Assembly: GCA_017409475.1 (NCBI GenBank) | Contig: JAFQSP010000004.1 | Span: 1-36,648 of the forward strand | Direction of reading: 5' to 3' | DNA: 36,648 nucleotides | Source: Clostridia bacterium | GTDB lineage: Bacteria; Bacillota; Clostridia; Oscillospirales; Acutalibacteraceae | Part shown: one piece after another, positions 676 to 36,171 of the stretch | Layout: every line of letters starts with the position of its first letter | Numbering within the stretch: the first letter of the stretch is position 1 | Program-made: the position numbers and the translations under genes | Notes under the pieces: model-generated | Database searches by the model: none | Told to the model about the DNA's origin: nothing | What the model saw: only the letters and a program-made list of their open reading frames with translations

Positions 676-3600
676 ATGGTAAAAGTTTTTAAAAGCCTTT
701 TGTCAACAATACTGATACTTTCAATGCTGCTTAACATTGTTGCATTTGGTGCGACGGTTGAAAATGAAGAGTTGCTTGCATCATTGAATTGGACAAGCGA
801 TTTTGAACAGGGTGAATGGAAAAACGGCGAGGCGGCATTTTCGGTTTCAGGTTTTGAACCCGGAAGTGAGGCTGTTCGTTATTTCAAGATTGAAAACGCA
901 GGAGAGCTTGCATTTTCATACGAAATGAAAATGATTGCATCCGAAATCGGAGAAATGGCAAGTGTGCTTGATGTTTACTATAAAAAAGGCATTTCTTCAA
1001 ATACCGCGGTTAAGGATATGACAAAAATCGGGACGCTTGCGGAGGTTCTCGGAGGTTTGACGGTTGCGGAGGGAAGCATTGTGCCTGAAGGTGAGTCGGT
1101 AAGTACGGCTGACACCAAGGAAACGGTTGTTGCAGTTGCTTTCAAGATGACTGATAATGTTCCAAAGGAATTCATGAATAAAGGAACAGGTGAATTTTCA
1201 ATTCAGCTTAATCTTACATCTTTTGATGAAGCAAACAAGTTTAAGGTGAAATTTGATAATACAGATAAATATTTGTACCGTGTGGGTAATGCAAACGATG
1301 TGGCTTTGAGTTCGCTTTTTGAGACTGTTGACGGTGCTGATGTGGGCAATGTTTCGGTTGTGATTAATTCACTTGATGCAAACACGGATGTTGCGGGTAC
1401 ATATACTGCTAATGCATCGAATTGGGGTTTAGGTACAATTAAGTTTAGCGGAACAGGTCCTGTTGAGGTTACAATTGATGATGACGGATATGCCAATGCA
1501 CTGTCACTTAAATTGGAGGTTGTTGATGCCACGAATTTTACATCGTATAGCAGTAAAATGGCAGAAACTAACAGCGTTTTTCTGAATGATATTAAAATGT
1601 CATCCGGCGGAAGTATTATGCTTGATGGAAAGAGTTTGTACGGTAACGGTTTCACTTTTGATGTAACTGACGGTGCCTATGCAAGTTCGGGATATATTAC
1701 CGGAAATTACGTTATCAGACTTGATAACTCAATACTTGACAATGTGAAAGTTGAGGGTGCTGTATATACTGAGTATGGTGCAACAAGATTGGATGCATAT
1801 AACAGGGCGACTGTTTTGGTTTGTAAGGATAGCGTAATTGCCAATAGCTATATTTCCAACTGTGCCGCTCCGGTTCGTGTAAACGGAGGTAATCTTGAAA
1901 TTGCAAATTCGACCCTCAAAGGGGGAAATTTTGCAAATGTTGATATCAGAGGCGGAAATGTTGTGCTTGATAATGTGACAACTATCAACCAGGTGAACGG
2001 AAATGATTTGGCTGCTGACGGAACAGTTGTTGCAGGATTTGGTGTTGTTGTTTACTATGAACAAGTTCCTTCTACAACAACTGTTGAGATTAGAAACGGG
2101 ATAACACAGTATAACAATCTTTCGAAAAAGCAGGCGAGTGATTACATTAAGGATACCAGTGCTAAACAGCTTACAGACGTAATGTTTGGTTCAAGCTGCT
2201 CAAGTATTCAGTATACTGATGCAAACAGTGATGTGTGGGTCAATTGTGGTATTCTTTCAATGACCAGTAATGTTGCCGATGCAAATATTTCGGATATTGA
2301 TGGATATAGTTCGGCAAATCCGGTGTTTGCGGGTAAGACAGGTTACGTATACTCAAAAGTGCCGGATGCTACAAGTATATCGGTGAGTGTACCTACATAT
2401 CATTCAACTGCACAAGCAGCCATTGCTCCTTTATACAGTTTTGAATACCCTGAATCCGAAGGTAACAAGAATTATGTTGCTAAGGTTGAAGGTTCAAATG
2501 ATTATTGTGTGATGACAGATGGCATGGTAACGATTTCTATGGATGCGGGTGATGTGTTCTCTTGGGATACATCAATACTGAATGTTACAAAAGCCGGTAA
2601 AGCCCTTGATTATACGGTAACAATGAACGGCACTGATTATACCGGAAAAACAATAGATTTTGATACTGCCGGCAATTATGTTGTAACATATACTTGTTCC
2701 GATGAAAATAATTATAGTATGGATTCTGATGGGAATATTATAGTTTACGAAAAGACATACAGAAAATCTGTAAATATTAATGTTGATGTAGTTAAAGCTG
2801 CTTGGAAAAATGCCGAAATTATGGTTGATACATCTGAGATAGCTTCCATGTCTGAATACGTGATGACTGGTGACTACGACTATCAATATAAAATGTATTT
2901 TTTGGGTTGTGTAACTGTTACTGACTATGATGAGACCGGAAATGCAACGGTTGTGGATTTGGACAGCGGAATATCCTCGTATACTTTTAGTACTTCAACC
3001 GGAAGCAACGGAACGATTGAGAATACCGGTATTTTGACGCTTAATTATTCAAATGGGAAAACCTTTAAGGTGAACATCGGAAACTGGAAGGGTAGTGGGC
3101 CGAGTGCAAAAACCTGTACAGTAAATATTTCGGATAATAATGTGTATATTATTACAGATGGTGCTTCGAATGCCGCTAACATAGACGTATCTTGGGATGC
3201 ATCTGCATTTACTTATACCGGAAATAATGGTGCTACTGTTACAAATAATACAACGGCATCGTTTTTGTGGAATGAGCAGACAAAAGGTTATAATAGCAAA
3301 TCAAGCGGCGGATGTGTAACAGGTGACACGCTTATAACACTGGCTGATGGAAGTGGAAAACGTATTGATCAGTTGACATACGAAGATAACCTTCTTGTAT
3401 GGAACTTCTTTGAGGGCGAGTATGATGTTGTTCCGCCTGCGATAATATTTAATCATGGCATAAATGACAACGAAATCGTAAAGCTCACATTTGATGATAA
3501 ATCGGAAATCAAAATAATAATGTCTCACGAGTTCTTTGATGTTGATGCTAACGAGTTTGTTATAGTAAACTCTGGAAATGTTGAAAGCTATATCGGACAT

Positions 3601-5616
3601 AAATTCCTGAAAGCGGATGGTGATGAGTTCAAGGCGGTTGAACTTACAGATTACGAGGTATGGACAGAAAATTGTCCGGCATATGGCGTGATTACTGCGC
3701 TTCATTATAATGCAATTACAGGTGGATTCCTCACAACCAACTTTGAAGAACAAGATTGCGGTCTTCATAACTATTTTGAAGTTGGAGAAGATTTGACCTT
3801 TGATAGGGAGAAGATGGAAGCTGATATTGAACAGTATGGCCTTTATAAATATGAGGATTTTGCTGATTATCTCACACCTGAGTTTTTTGAAGGCTATAAT
3901 GTAAAGTATATGAAAGTTGCAGTTGGCAAAGGTCAGTATACATATCAGGGCATGATTGATTTAATTCAGAAATGGCTTGTTGATTCAGATGAAGTTCTTC
4001 CCAATGGTCAGGAAAAACAAGTAGCTGAAGAAGATGATACTTCATGGACCCCTGGATATATTCCTTATGAATCCGATATTGAAGCTCTGACGGATGATGA
4101 ACCACAGGCGATAGAGTATGTTCCTGAAACGAAGACAATCACATTGGCCGGTAACAGTGTTGCGGCGGCAAATTATGCGATTGATGTTTCGGGCGAAGGT
4201 CTTGAAGAAGCTGCGGACGGATATTTGGTTAAAGAGGCTGAGTGTGATGTTGTTCTTGCGGCATGTGGCACAGCAACCACGGGATATGCAAAAATTTTGG
4301 TTGGCGAGGACGTTTATTACACAAATCAGATTGCAAATGGTGAGAATTTTATTCTTACATTGAAAAATGCTGTGGGCAAGGCGGTGTCGGTTGAAGCGTT
4401 CTGGGGTAATTCGGCAAATTATGACGTTGCACAGGATGCATTGATTGAAAGTGGAAAGGTTATTGAGTATACTTATACGGTTGAAATTACGGCTACAAAT
4501 GCAACAGAGGCGGAAGGCAGTTATGCTGTAACGGAAAATGAAAGTGTGTTCACCCTTACGGCAAACGGAAGTGCAACACCCGGATATGCAAAGATTTCGG
4601 TTAATGGTGATGATTATTATACAGAAGCCATTGCAAAGGGTGAGACATTTACATTCACGGTGAATAATGCAAGGGGCAAGATGGTTGCAATTGAGACCTT
4701 CTACGGAGAGCCAACAGCAGAGAATCTTATTGCAAGTGGAAGCGAAATTGGTTATGTTGCAGAAGTGACAGCAGAAAATGCAACACTTAACGAAGATGGA
4801 AAGTATGTTGTGGATGCAGACGAAGCAACAATTACGGTTACTGCAAGTGGTACCTCAGAGGGTTATGCAAAGATTACGGTGGGTGAAGAAGTTTACTACA
4901 CCAAGCAGATTGCAAGCGGAGAAAGTTTTGTAATGACCCTGAAGAATGCAAAGGGCAAGATTTTTGATGTTGAAACAATCTGGGCAAAATCGGAAAATGA
5001 CGGAGTTGCACAGGATGTATTGATTGAAAGTGGAAAGGTGATTGAGTATACTTATACAGTTGAAATCACGGCGACAAATGCAACAGAGGAAGAAAACGGC
5101 TATCTTGTGAACGAAAATGAAAGTGTATTCACTCTCAAAGCATCCGGAACGGCAACGATGGGGTATGCGACCATTGCTGTTGACGGAGATGTGTATTATA
5201 CGCAAAAGATTGTACCCAACGAAGAATTTAAGGTTACTGTTAAGAATGCAAAAGGCAAAACTGTTGGAATTGCATCATTCTACGGAGAATTTGATGATGA
5301 GGAAGTTTTGGATGAATATATCCTCGGAAATGAAGATGTGATTGATTGCGGTACATTCTCGATTAAGTCCGTTGAAGGTACAACTGTTGTACTTTCAAAT
5401 ACAACAAAGTATGCATCTGAGACGGTTGATATTTATGTTGCGGTTTACGATTCTCAAAACAGAATGATTGCCGTTAAACAGGAAAGAAATGTTTCGGTTG
5501 GCGGAAAGACTGAACATACATTTGATTCAAAATTGGTTATTCCTGAAAACGGATATGCAAAAGTCTTTGTGTGGAGCGGAACAGATGCGTTGAAGCCTGT
5601 GTTTGGTGCAAGATAA
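676..5616 (+). CDS. Very large secreted protein with internal Hint domain and C-terminal repeats
   Basis: This 1646-residue protein is secreted: a basic N-terminus and hydrophobic stretch end near AFGA (about residue 26). Residues about 30-175 resemble TasA/camelysin-type proteins (a PGSEAVRYFKIENAG stretch followed by LDVYY). Residues about 200-500 are Asn/Gly/Val-rich with short beta repeats, like a beta-helix. A Hint (hedgehog/intein) domain runs from Cys880 (GGCVTGDTLITLADG) to His1031-Asn1032 (GLHNYFEV). Four repeats of about 95-105 residues start near 1160, 1268, 1364 and 1461; each holds GYAxIxVxxxxYYT and a K-N-A-x-G-K core. The C-terminus is a short beta domain ending in AKVFVW. There is no LPXTG, SLH or C-terminal membrane segment. 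Inference: a cell-surface or released protein processed at the Hint domain. The gene is monocistronic, between its own promoter and the hairpin at 5634. Its role is unknown. Confidence 0.9.
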   Translation: MVKVFKSLLSTILILSMLLNIVAFGATVENEELLASLNWTSDFEQGEWKNGEAAFSVSGFEPGSEAVRYFKIENAGELAFSYEMKMIASEIGEMASVLDVYYKKGISSNTAVKDMTKIGTLAEVLGGLTVAEGSIVPEGESVSTADTKETVVAVAFKMTDNVPKEFMNKGTGEFSIQLNLTSFDEANKFKVKFDNTDKYLYRVGNANDVALSSLFETVDGADVGNVSVVINSLDANTDVAGTYTANASNWGLGTIKFSGTGPVEVTIDDDGYANALSLKLEVVDATNFTSYSSKMAETNSVFLNDIKMSSGGSIMLDGKSLYGNGFTFDVTDGAYASSGYITGNYVIRLDNSILDNVKVEGAVYTEYGATRLDAYNRATVLVCKDSVIANSYISNCAAPVRVNGGNLEIANSTLKGGNFANVDIRGGNVVLDNVTTINQVNGNDLAADGTVVAGFGVVVYYEQVPSTTTVEIRNGITQYNNLSKKQASDYIKDTSAKQLTDVMFGSSCSSIQYTDANSDVWVNCGILSMTSNVADANISDIDGYSSANPVFAGKTGYVYSKVPDATSISVSVPTYHSTAQAAIAPLYSFEYPESEGNKNYVAKVEGSNDYCVMTDGMVTISMDAGDVFSWDTSILNVTKAGKALDYTVTMNGTDYTGKTIDFDTAGNYVVTYTCSDENNYSMDSDGNIIVYEKTYRKSVNINVDVVKAAWKNAEIMVDTSEIASMSEYVMTGDYDYQYKMYFLGCVTVTDYDETGNATVVDLDSGISSYTFSTSTGSNGTIENTGILTLNYSNGKTFKVNIGNWKGSGPSAKTCTVNISDNNVYIITDGASNAANIDVSWDASAFTYTGNNGATVTNNTTASFLWNEQTKGYNSKSSGGCVTGDTLITLADGSGKRIDQLTYEDNLLVWNFFEGEYDVVPPAIIFNHGINDNEIVKLTFDDKSEIKIIMSHEFFDVDANEFVIVNSGNVESYIGHKFLKADGDEFKAVELTDYEVWTENCPAYGVITALHYNAITGGFLTTNFEEQDCGLHNYFEVGEDLTFDREKMEADIEQYGLYKYEDFADYLTPEFFEGYNVKYMKVAVGKGQYTYQGMIDLIQKWLVDSDEVLPNGQEKQVAEEDDTSWTPGYIPYESDIEALTDDEPQAIEYVPETKTITLAGNSVAAANYAIDVSGEGLEEAADGYLVKEAECDVVLAACGTATTGYAKILVGEDVYYTNQIANGENFILTLKNAVGKAVSVEAFWGNSANYDVAQDALIESGKVIEYTYTVEITATNATEAEGSYAVTENESVFTLTANGSATPGYAKISVNGDDYYTEAIAKGETFTFTVNNARGKMVAIETFYGEPTAENLIASGSEIGYVAEVTAENATLNEDGKYVVDADEATITVTASGTSEGYAKITVGEEVYYTKQIASGESFVMTLKNAKGKIFDVETIWAKSENDGVAQDVLIESGKVIEYTYTVEITATNATEEENGYLVNENESVFTLKASGTATMGYATIAVDGDVYYTQKIVPNEEFKVTVKNAKGKTVGIASFYGEFDDEEVLDEYILGNEDVIDCGTFSIKSVEGTTVVLSNTTKYASETVDIYVAVYDSQNRMIAVKQERNVSVGGKTEHTFDSKLVIPENGYAKVFVWSGTDALKPVFGAR
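3313..3774 (+). other. Hint / bacterial intein-like domain (residues 880-1032)
   Basis: The segment begins with a Cys in the context GGC-VTGDTLI, as in intein block A, and ends with His-Asn (residues 1031-1032) after YGVITALHYNA and a long loop, as in intein blocks F and G. It is about 153 residues, too short to hold a homing endonuclease. The residue after HN is Tyr, not Cys/Ser/Thr, so ordinary protein splicing is not expected. Bacterial intein-like domains of this kind are known for N- or C-terminal cleavage. Confidence 0.8.
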
Positions 5617-5664: not shown

Positions 5665-5771
5665 AAAATGATTTTGATAAAAGTTGGATTATTCATTGCG
5701 GCTTTATGTATACAGTATTATAAAAAAAGGAAAAATGTAAATACCGTACATGAAACATAAGGTTAAAAGAC

Positions 5772-5800
5772 TTGACAAAATCGGGAAAATAAGGTAGAAT
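5772..5800 (+). promoter_or_regulatory. Promoter of the riboswitch-oadB unit
   Basis: TTGACA (5772-5777), a 17-bp spacer and TAGAAT (5795-5800) are immediately followed by the riboswitch leader. Transcription would start near 5807, just before the aptamer. Confidence 0.85.
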
Positions 5801-5810
5801 AATTAAAGTT

Positions 5811-5942
5811 ACTCATGAGGGAGTAGTTTGGCGCATGAAATATTGCGTGGCAAGTCGTCATTCACGACCAACCAAAAACGGTTCGGCTTGTCTTAAATAA
5901 CAAGACTCATGTACGGTTTTTTCCGTGCATGGTCTTTTTTTT
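5811..5942 (+). promoter_or_regulatory. yybP-ykoY manganese riboswitch with terminator
   Basis: The leader matches the yybP-ykoY aptamer in order. P1 is CATGAG (5814-5819) with CTCATG (5906-5911). Next come GGGAGTAG, a hairpin CGCA/TGCG, then GCAAGTCGTCATTC, a tip hairpin AACC/GGTT, then CGGCTTGT and AACAAGAC before the P1 3' strand. An intrinsic terminator follows: 5904-5916 pairs with 5923-5934, ending in eight Ts. The 3' strand of P1 is also part of the left terminator arm, so aptamer folding and termination exclude each other. From the known family, Mn2+ stabilises the aptamer; this layout predicts an ON switch. The leader ends 3 bp before the AGGAGG of the oadB-like gene. Confidence 0.85.
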
Positions 5943-5957
5943 CGAGGAGGATAAAAA

Positions 5958-7049
5958 ATGGAAGTACTTTACGAAAATTTACTGCAAATTAACTGGCAGC
6001 AGCTTGTGATGTGGATAATCGGTGCGATTCTGATTTTTCTTGCAATCAAGAAGGAAATGGAACCAACACTTCTTTTGCCCATGGGATTTGGTGCTATTTT
6101 GGTTAACCTTCCTAATTCGGGGGCAATTGAGACTCTTGAAACCTTGTTTAGTGCAGGTATTTCAAATGAGCTTTTTCCGTTGATTTTGTTCATCGGTATT
6201 GGTGCAATGATTGATTTTGGTCCTTTGCTTTCTAATCCGAAGCTGATGATATTTGGTGCGGCGGCACAGTTTGGAATTTTCTTTACACTTTGCTTTGCAT
6301 CAATGTTTTTCCCGGACATCAAGGATGCGGCATCAATTGCGATTATCGGTGCGGCTGACGGCCCTACCTCAATTGTTGTTGCTCAGGCTCTTGATTCGAA
6401 ATATCTTGGGGCTATTATGGTTGCTGCTTATTCATACATGGCACTTGTTCCCATTATTCAGCCGCCTGTGATTAAGCTGCTTACAACAAAAAAAGAACGC
6501 AGAATCCGGATGGATTATACCCAAAAGGAAGTTTCAAAAACAACAAAGATTTTGTTCCCCATTGTTATTACTGCCATTGCGGGACTTGTTGCTCCTGATT
6601 CGGTTGCTCTGGTTGGATTCCTTATGTTTGGAAACCTTATTCGTGAATGTGGGGTTTTGAATTCACTTTCGGAAACAGCACAGAAGTCTTTGGCAAACAT
6701 AGTTACCATTTTTCTTGGTATAACCATTTCGCTCAGAATGGAAGCAAGTGAGTTCTTGCAGACTGAAACCCTTTTGATTCTTGGACTTGGACTGATTGCC
6801 TTTATTTTTGATACGGCAGGTGGCGTTTTGTTTGCAAAGGTGCTTAACCTTTTCTCCAAAAAGAAAATCAATCCTATGATTGGTGCGGCGGGAATTTCGG
6901 CATTTCCTATGTCGGGCCGTGTTGTTCACAAGATGGGACTCAAGGAAGACCCTCAGAACTTTTTGCTTATGCACTCAATTGGGGTTAATGTTTCGGGTCA
7001 GATTGCCTCGGTTATTGCAGGCGGTTTGATACTCAACTTCTTTATGTAA
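5958..7049 (+). CDS. Sodium ion-translocating decarboxylase beta subunit (OadB/GcdB/MmdB family)
   Basis: This 363-residue multi-pass membrane protein shows the family signatures: KKEMEPTLLLPMGFGAI near the N-terminus, FIGIGAMIDFGPLL, the conserved IGAADGPTSI with the Asp implicated in Na+ transport, and a C-terminal NPMIGAAGISAFPMSGRVVHK. In the known complexes the beta subunit couples decarboxylation of a carboxybiotin to Na+ export. Here there is no alpha (carboxyltransferase) subunit or biotin carrier next to it, only a gamma-like small protein, and the unit sits behind a Mn2+ riboswitch. Start ATG follows AGGAGG by 7 bp. It could join subunits encoded elsewhere, or be an ion transporter on its own. 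Confidence 0.92.
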   Translation: MEVLYENLLQINWQQLVMWIIGAILIFLAIKKEMEPTLLLPMGFGAILVNLPNSGAIETLETLFSAGISNELFPLILFIGIGAMIDFGPLLSNPKLMIFGAAAQFGIFFTLCFASMFFPDIKDAASIAIIGAADGPTSIVVAQALDSKYLGAIMVAAYSYMALVPIIQPPVIKLLTTKKERRIRMDYTQKEVSKTTKILFPIVITAIAGLVAPDSVALVGFLMFGNLIRECGVLNSLSETAQKSLANIVTIFLGITISLRMEASEFLQTETLLILGLGLIAFIFDTAGGVLFAKVLNLFSKKKINPMIGAAGISAFPMSGRVVHKMGLKEDPQNFLLMHSIGVNVSGQIASVIAGGLILNFFM

Positions 7050-7066
7050 GGGAGGAAAAAAAGCAT

Positions 7067-7210
7067 ATGAATTTTAATCCAATGGCTTTTGTCGACAATC
7101 TCTACTATATGGGAATCGGAATGCTCAGCATTCTCATCGTTATGGGCGCTCTTATTGTTATTACCGTGCTGCTCAACTGGTTCGGTAAAAAGGGTAAAAA
7201 GGACGAATAA
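7067..7210 (+). CDS. Small OadG-like gamma subunit
   Basis: This 47-residue protein has one membrane helix (about residues 15-37, MGIGMLSILIVMGALIV) and a basic, Lys-rich tail. It begins 17 bp after the oadB-like gene with its own site GGGAGG. Size, topology and position fit the gamma subunit (OadG/PF04277-like), which anchors and stabilises decarboxylase complexes. It is shorter than typical OadG (about 80 residues) and lacks the C-terminal zinc-binding extension. Confidence 0.75.
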   Translation: MNFNPMAFVDNLYYMGIGMLSILIVMGALIVITVLLNWFGKKGKKDE

Positions 7211-36050: not shown

Positions 36051-36108
36051 CTCCTTTTGGTGTTCCTTGCAGTTGCCAGACCGCAAGTTTATTATACACC
36101 AAAAGGAG
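36051..36108. repeat. IS200-type internal hairpin covering the tnpA RBS
   Basis: CTCCTTTTGGTGT (36051-36063) pairs perfectly with ACACCAAAAGGAG (36096-36108), with a smaller TTGC/GCAA stem inside. On the plus strand it is followed by TTCTTTTTT, like a terminator. In IS200 such hairpins block outside transcription and hide the transposase RBS; here the arm includes AGGAGG. Confidence 0.75.
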
Positions 36109-36144
36109 TTCTTTTTTCATATTCATCGCTAAAGCTTTTTCGCT

Positions 36145-36163
36145 CCACCGACATAGTCGGTGG
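36145..36163. mobile_element. IS200-type end hairpin
   Basis: CCACCGAC-ATA-GTCGGTGG is a perfect 8-bp stem, about 105 bp upstream of tnpA, in the place of the subterminal hairpin recognised by Y1 transposases. The other end of the element (past 35726) shows no matching hairpin, which agrees with truncation on that side. Confidence 0.6.
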
Positions 36164-36171
36164 TTGTTATA

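Follow-up and report, generated by a model that had tools for sequence, protein, structure and literature searches.

Riboswitches of the yybP-ykoY class carry in loop L3 an invariant adenosine that contacts Mn2+ via its N7 (A41 in the L. lactis sequence UCAAUUC, A48 in the X. oryzae sequence ACAUACU; PMC6754395, in excerpt). The L. lactis riboswitch is an ON switch, in which Mn2+ stabilises helix P1.1 and an overlapping terminator is thereby prevented (PMC11087558, in excerpt). On the protein side, the closest described system is the decarboxylase StOAD, where Glu40 of the beta subunit was reported, in the part of PMC7274780 drawn on here, to be critical for carboxybiotin decarboxylation.

We analyzed 36,648 nucleotides of DNA from a Clostridia bacterium (GCA_017409475.1, contig JAFQSP010000004.1, positions 1-36,648 of the forward strand; this whole stretch is the window). 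A first-pass annotation, made from the letters alone, had placed a yybP-ykoY riboswitch in front of an OadB-type beta subunit (here beta2) and a 47-residue gamma-like protein (mini-gamma), and had predicted an ON switch. The beta2 assignment and the leader anatomy stood up to family searches, folding and a purpose-built covariance model (R1, described below), and the features are as follows.

5772-5777 (+), -35 box TTGACA, by sequence
5795-5800 (+), -10 box TAGAAT, by sequence, at a spacing of 17 nt
5814-5912 (+), yybP-ykoY-type aptamer (P1, GGGAGTAG of L1, P2, P3/L3, AAGACTC), by R1
5814-5819 (+), P1 5' strand CATGAG, by R1 alignment
5831-5848 (+), P2 hairpin, by folding (5831-5835 with 5844-5848)
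5849-5892 (+), P3/L3, by folding (5849-5857 with 5884-5892)
5860 (+), an A that by sequence corresponds to the L3 adenosine in contact with Mn2+ in L. lactis and X. oryzae (PMC6754395)
5906-5911 (+), P1 3' strand CTCATG, by R1 alignment and folding, within the terminator left arm
5903-5942 (+), intrinsic terminator (left arm 5903-5916, loop 5917-5922, right arm 5923-5935, T run)
5946-5950 (+), ribosome binding site of beta2, GGAGG, by sequence
5958-7049 (+), beta2 (OAD_beta ORF), a decarboxylase beta-subunit paralogue of 363 aa (PF03977, 513.6 bits)
7067-7210 (+), mini-gamma, 47 aa, with one predicted membrane helix region; its homologues follow beta2 in relatives

Two other features of the window were recorded. 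Upstream of the leader, an ORF of 1646 residues at 676-5616 (+) matches no family above cut-off, and 36054-36165 (-) matches STnc490, an enterobacterial sRNA family, at 58.6 bits against a gathering score of 56, probably by chance.

The leader and its RNA class

The first-pass annotation had expected a significant score against RF00080, the Rfam family of yybP-ykoY, and none was obtained: there was no match in the window at the gathering score, and none at E <= 10 either on 5700-6100 or genome-wide. The same model also gave no match at E <= 10 for a relative's leader that precedes mntP (L007), and scored two others (L012, 23.1 bits; L010, 14.0 bits) below its gathering score of 45, so the non-match does not refute the class. 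In a positive control with 14 known genomes, whole-genome RF00080 searches gave a signal in nine, two of them above cut-off. The short form of yybP-ykoY found here escapes RF00080 scoring, and the manganese regulon of these bacteria is therefore probably under-annotated.

Since RF00080 fails even on a leader before mntP, we replaced it by R1, a covariance model built from seven relatives' leaders with the window and all OadB leaders excluded. These leaders go back to a leader BLAST in 60 relatives, which gave short matches, around several of which lay full leaders of the same plan. They precede MntP (L007, L012) or P-type ATPases (L005, L006, L008, L010, L014), the targets being assigned by Pfam (L005, L008, L014, L007 refetched as L037, and L010 refetched as L036) or by similarity (the L006 and L012 genes). 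R1 matched the window at 5814-5912 with 68.8 bits and an E-value of 9.6e-17, for an aptamer absent from its training set, bearing out the ordered yybP-ykoY elements that had been read from the letters. The leader of the genome's second beta2 copy (L035, contig C14) scored 52.2 bits (E 4.3e-12), and there was no match around the third OadB, on the contig C7 stretch.

When 39 beta2 leaders (38 distinct) were aligned by R1, 92.4% of 712 cells paired in this alignment, which is fitted to the model. In the same fitted alignment 17 of the 20 pairs had changed on both sides, with 141 double-change cells; shuffles gave a mean of 43.4, and slid partners never more than 21. The R1 match and the covariation together show L1/L3 elements and helices common to the window leader and the leaders of ATPases and mntP. 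The leader is almost certainly of yybP-ykoY type, as judged from its sequence, and its ligand is very probably Mn2+.

A yybP-ykoY fold that senses some other ion, such as Na+, would match the target gene, and a precedent exists in the Na+-sensing DUF1646 (Na+-I) class, which precedes oxaloacetate decarboxylase/pycB in the excerpted part of PMC9337991. L3 of the beta2 leaders is, moreover, mostly of a different sequence type from that of other leaders. The L3 pattern itself is present in 39 of 40 beta2 leaders (L094 being the exception), three of the 39 reading GACAAAT, possibly outside L3. Against such a change of ligand, the commonest beta2 L3 (GUCAAU..) resembles L3 of the L. lactis Mn2+ riboswitch (PMC6754395), and the same RNA type stands before MntP and P-type ATPases within the same family; we regard another ion as highly improbable. 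DUF1646 as the class of the leader was rejected, with no match on 5700-6100 at E <= 10.

The switching element would be the terminator, with a folding energy of -18.7 kcal/mol when taken by itself. Minimum-energy folding of the complete leader gives the terminator form, and the P1 3' strand does double as part of the terminator left arm, as had been proposed (5906-5911 within 5903-5916). In 37 of 40 beta2 leaders (exceptions L087, L213 and L233) a stem of at least six pairs overlaps the P1 3' strand and precedes a T run, as compared to 182 of 780 cases with shuffled downstream letters. The promoter position would place the RNA start just 5' of the aptamer. The leader is a predicted ON switch, and this prediction is well supported by the sequence.

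Recurrence and targets of the leader

A survey of leaders preceding OadB homologs, suggested on the basis of RF00080, was carried out with R1 in 200 genomes of the window genome's family. At E <= 0.01, 92 matches were listed, in 79 genomes. The 90 leaders outside the window genome precede P-type ATPases (43, in five of which the match starts 274-510 nt past the leader), MntP (18), OadB (14) and other genes (15). Pfam assigned the last group to Na_Ca_ex in six cases (L046, L049, L066, L071, L114, L124) and to GDT1/UPF0016 (L041), ABC (L055), TetR (L091), Na_Pi_cotrans (L112), CitMHS (L113) and Band_7 (L115) in one each; L078 and L093 (no Pfam family) and L069 (contig edge) were left unassigned.

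The Band_7 gene at L115 is of the SPFH type, and at a further locus two such leaders (L027:1395-1532 and 2471-2576) flank an SPFH-like gene, the second preceding a gene that by eye resembles Na/Pi cotransporters. SPFH and Na/Pi-cotransporter-like genes are possible further manganese targets.

Counting the window and contig C14, OadB follows 16 of the 92 leaders. All 16 OadBs belong to one subfamily, beta2, and 15 are followed by a small gamma-like ORF, with another gene in its place at L087. The window genome encodes three OadBs and has the leader before two. Its second copy of leader, beta2 and mini-gamma is directly followed, close to the contig C14 end, by the C-terminal portion of a group II intron reverse transcriptase/maturase (GIIM, RVT_1; L035:15514-16185, minus strand).

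We also examined the best 80 of 551 beta2 relatives, mostly from Clostridia and Oscillospiraceae draft genomes. The leader lies directly upstream in 24 of these 80, 23 recognized by R1 and one (L189) by pattern. Within the family, it was found on 22 of 86 beta2 genes: 16 from the survey, three more by R1 and three by pattern only (L189, L309, L322 and L328 are the leaders that rest on pattern). No leader was found directly upstream of the remaining 64 of 86 family beta2 genes and 56 of the best 80 named relatives. These two sets overlap, L225 and L084 encoding an identical protein, and the leader-beta2 count leaves aside L256, where mntP follows the leader and the distance from leader to beta2 is about 1.05 kb. 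Of the 67 family beta2 loci at which R1 recognized no leader, 40 showed no riboswitch at gathering score; two of these 40 (L309 and L322) do carry a pattern leader.

On a quick tree of 96 beta2 proteins, from which L229 was omitted as its contig ends within the leader region, the leader label requires 18-19 changes against shuffled means of 31-33. At least 6 leader changes are forced by well-supported branches of this quick tree, and its deepest branches carry the leader. The link between leader and beta2 is not an accident of one genome; either it arose early and was lost repeatedly, or it was gained many times. That a Mn2+-type leader is paired with OadB and mini-gamma repeatedly, in many genera, is well supported at the sequence level.

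Another neighbourhood joins the two functions. The Mn2+ exporter gene mntP adjoins OAD_beta in 4 of 178 loci. The order gamma-beta1-mntP, with no riboswitch, occurs in the window's genus (L001, L160), the window's own genome included (contig C7, L034:9835-12132). Leader, mntP and beta2 follow each other at L256:1357-3625, and mntP, a pyruvate kinase-like gene, leader and beta2 at L215:196-3610. The placement of mntP beside OAD_beta is a second tie of the Na+ pump to Mn2+ efflux. A literature search found no paper tying a yybP-ykoY riboswitch to oadB; its scope did not extend to the older target lists. Gene lists of the class are reportedly given in Dambach 2015, Price 2015 and Meyer 2011.

Beta2, mini-gamma and their biotin partners

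Beta2 matches PF03977 and TIGR01109 above cut-off and has the fold of the OAD beta subunit, a fold class that also holds the secondary transporters CitS, AspT and NhaP. Mini-gamma of the window reaches OAD_gamma (PF04277) at a sub-threshold E-value of 0.13, and 18 of 30 aligned homologues match that family at E <= 1 (best 5.5e-5). In 74 of the best 80 of 551 relatives, an ORF of 38-115 aa begins within 60 nt downstream of beta2.

The Na+-site residues D203, S382 and N412 and the catalytic E40 (StOAD numbering) are kept in 16/16 leader-associated beta2 proteins, and Na+ pumping is the function predicted for beta2 from its sequence. Arg304 is lost in 15 of the 16 and Asn311 in nine. Asp285, in a predicted membrane helix, and Gln348 are present in all 16 and in none of 14 beta1 proteins. 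Beta2 as defined by sequence is a distinct OadB subfamily, with an intramembrane Asp285 and usually followed by mini-gamma.

The altered site raises the idea that beta2 accepts Mn2+ and forms a decarboxylation-driven Mn2+ (or Na+/Mn2+) pump, that is, a primary Mn2+ exporter under riboswitch control. Most assignable targets of the leader are indeed cation transporters (43 ATPases, 18 MntP, six Na_Ca_ex and one GDT1 among the 92), mntP stands beside OAD_beta in the loci described above, and the beta2 operons of relatives contain the biotin partners that such a pump would use. However, Asp285 and Gln348 are carried by all of the best 80 of 551 relatives, including all 56 leaderless ones, and these residues therefore mark the subfamily and not Mn2+ control; as a sign of Mn2+ specificity they are weakened. 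With the Na+-site residues unchanged as well, we consider a Mn2+-translocating decarboxylase unlikely.

The window operon contains no alpha subunit and no biotin carrier, and in the leader genomes beta2/mini-gamma stands alone. Relatives lacking the leader show other arrangements. In five of them (L214, L238, L248, L254, L255) the order is oadA-gamma-BCCP-beta2-mini-gamma-gamma-(BCCP)-beta1, and in the Erysipelotrichaceae loci L232 and L235 it is oadA-small gamma-like ORF-BCCP-birA-beta2-mini-gamma, with no other beta in view. In these readings some genes are uncalled at individual loci, such as the gamma before BCCP in L248 and the BCCP in L232; family searches confirm OadA (L214, L238, L235), BCCP (L214, L235), gamma (L214) and BirA (L235), the other genes being read from likeness. 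A BCCP-like sequence precedes beta2 in L246, with no oadA in view. The presence of beta2 within oadA-gamma-BCCP operons of relatives indicates that at least some members of the subfamily are components of biotin-dependent decarboxylases.

The description of the pair as orphan subunits holds for the operon; outside it, PYC_OADA is encoded in 13 of 15 leader-beta2 genomes. A biotin domain is likewise found in 13 of the 15, the exceptions to both being G014 and G160, and 14 of the 15 have a second OAD_beta with no R1 match. Of 16 further beta2 genomes, 10 have a PYC_OADA match and six do not, the latter including G160, which was searched again. Among the 85 family genomes with beta2, 81 encode a biotin domain; PF00364 is absent only from G008, G014, G160 and G190, all four drafts (completeness 69% for G014, 87% for G190, and a listed 100% for G160, in 40 contigs).

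These genomes bear on a different possibility, in which beta2/mini-gamma has left the decarboxylase and works alone, independently of biotin, as an exporter of Mn2+ or a Na+/Mn2+ exchanger. Its isolation under the riboswitch, the loss of Arg304 and the secondary transporters within the fold class would all fit such a role, and G160, with no PYC_OADA or biotin-domain match, speaks for it, though a draft in which 246 bases separate an acc-type gene from a contig end. Yet Glu40, critical in StOAD (PMC7274780), is kept throughout, most beta2 genomes have the biotin domain, and at L232 and L235, next to oadA and birA, no beta other than beta2 is in view. As proof of biotin-free function, four genomes of 85, all drafts, are weak, and an exporter working alone appears improbable, more so than the decarboxylation-driven Mn2+ pump.

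The first-pass annotation had left the choice between manganese control of a Na+-coupled carboxylate decarboxylase and conversion of the pair into a Mn2+ transporter. Its first half is the better supported, by the operons of relatives, the Na+-site residues and Glu40; the second draws on Asp285, the frequent loss of Arg304, and G160. Most likely beta2/mini-gamma serves a biotin-dependent Na+ pump as its membrane module, which at this locus is set apart and placed under Mn2+ control.

Proposed mechanism and comparison with known systems

Under this reading of the locus as a Mn2+-controlled pump module, at low Mn2+ the terminator would take up the P1 3' strand and transcription would stop near 5942. 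In excess Mn2+, loops L1 and L3 would close over the ion and stabilise P1, no terminator would form, and beta2 and mini-gamma would be produced. The two proteins would then most likely act as the membrane module of a cation-translocating, oxaloacetate-type, biotin-dependent decarboxylase, whose carboxyltransferase and biotin carrier would be supplied in trans from elsewhere in the genome. Mn2+ excess would in this way equip the pump with a second membrane module as an alternative, the most probable purpose being additional Na+ extrusion, feeding Na+-coupled Mn2+ efflux, an option beside which we note the Na_Ca_ex genes of the same regulon. Taken as a whole, an Mn2+ ON riboswitch that controls the membrane module of a decarboxylase Na+ pump and so aids Mn2+ efflux is, on balance, the account we lean towards.

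The targets of manganese riboswitches thereby gain a gene outside the exporters usually named, in many genera of uncultured gut Clostridia, and manganese excess becomes tied to a decarboxylation-driven cation pump, a link that is apparently undescribed. The question raised is whether this pump powers Mn2+ efflux via the Na+ gradient or carries Mn2+ itself. If the latter were true, carboxybiotin decarboxylation of oxaloacetate or a related compound would expel Mn2+, making this a biotin-powered exporter induced by a Mn2+ riboswitch.

Compared to described yybP-ykoY RNAs (RF00080), the window leader shares GGGAGUAG of L1, the P1-P3 plan, the L3 adenosine and the AAGAC element, and, with the L. 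lactis ON switch as excerpted from PMC11087558, a terminator that overlaps P1. It differs in its short form, to which RF00080 gives no score, and in having as its target an OAD beta subunit with mini-gamma and no known Mn2+ exporter. Unlike the beta-gamma complex of StOAD (PDB 6iww), beta2 has Asp285 and Gln348 and has mostly lost Arg304, its gamma is only about 40-100 aa long, and in leader genomes the pair is set apart from alpha. The Na+-I (DUF1646) system resembles this locus in that a metal-ion riboswitch controls a Na+-pump decarboxylase gene (PMC9337991, in excerpt), but it is a different RNA class. Closest in leader type and terminator plan are the family's own yybP-ykoY-mntP and yybP-ykoY-P-type ATPase units, whose target genes, unlike beta2, code for known or probable metal exporters.
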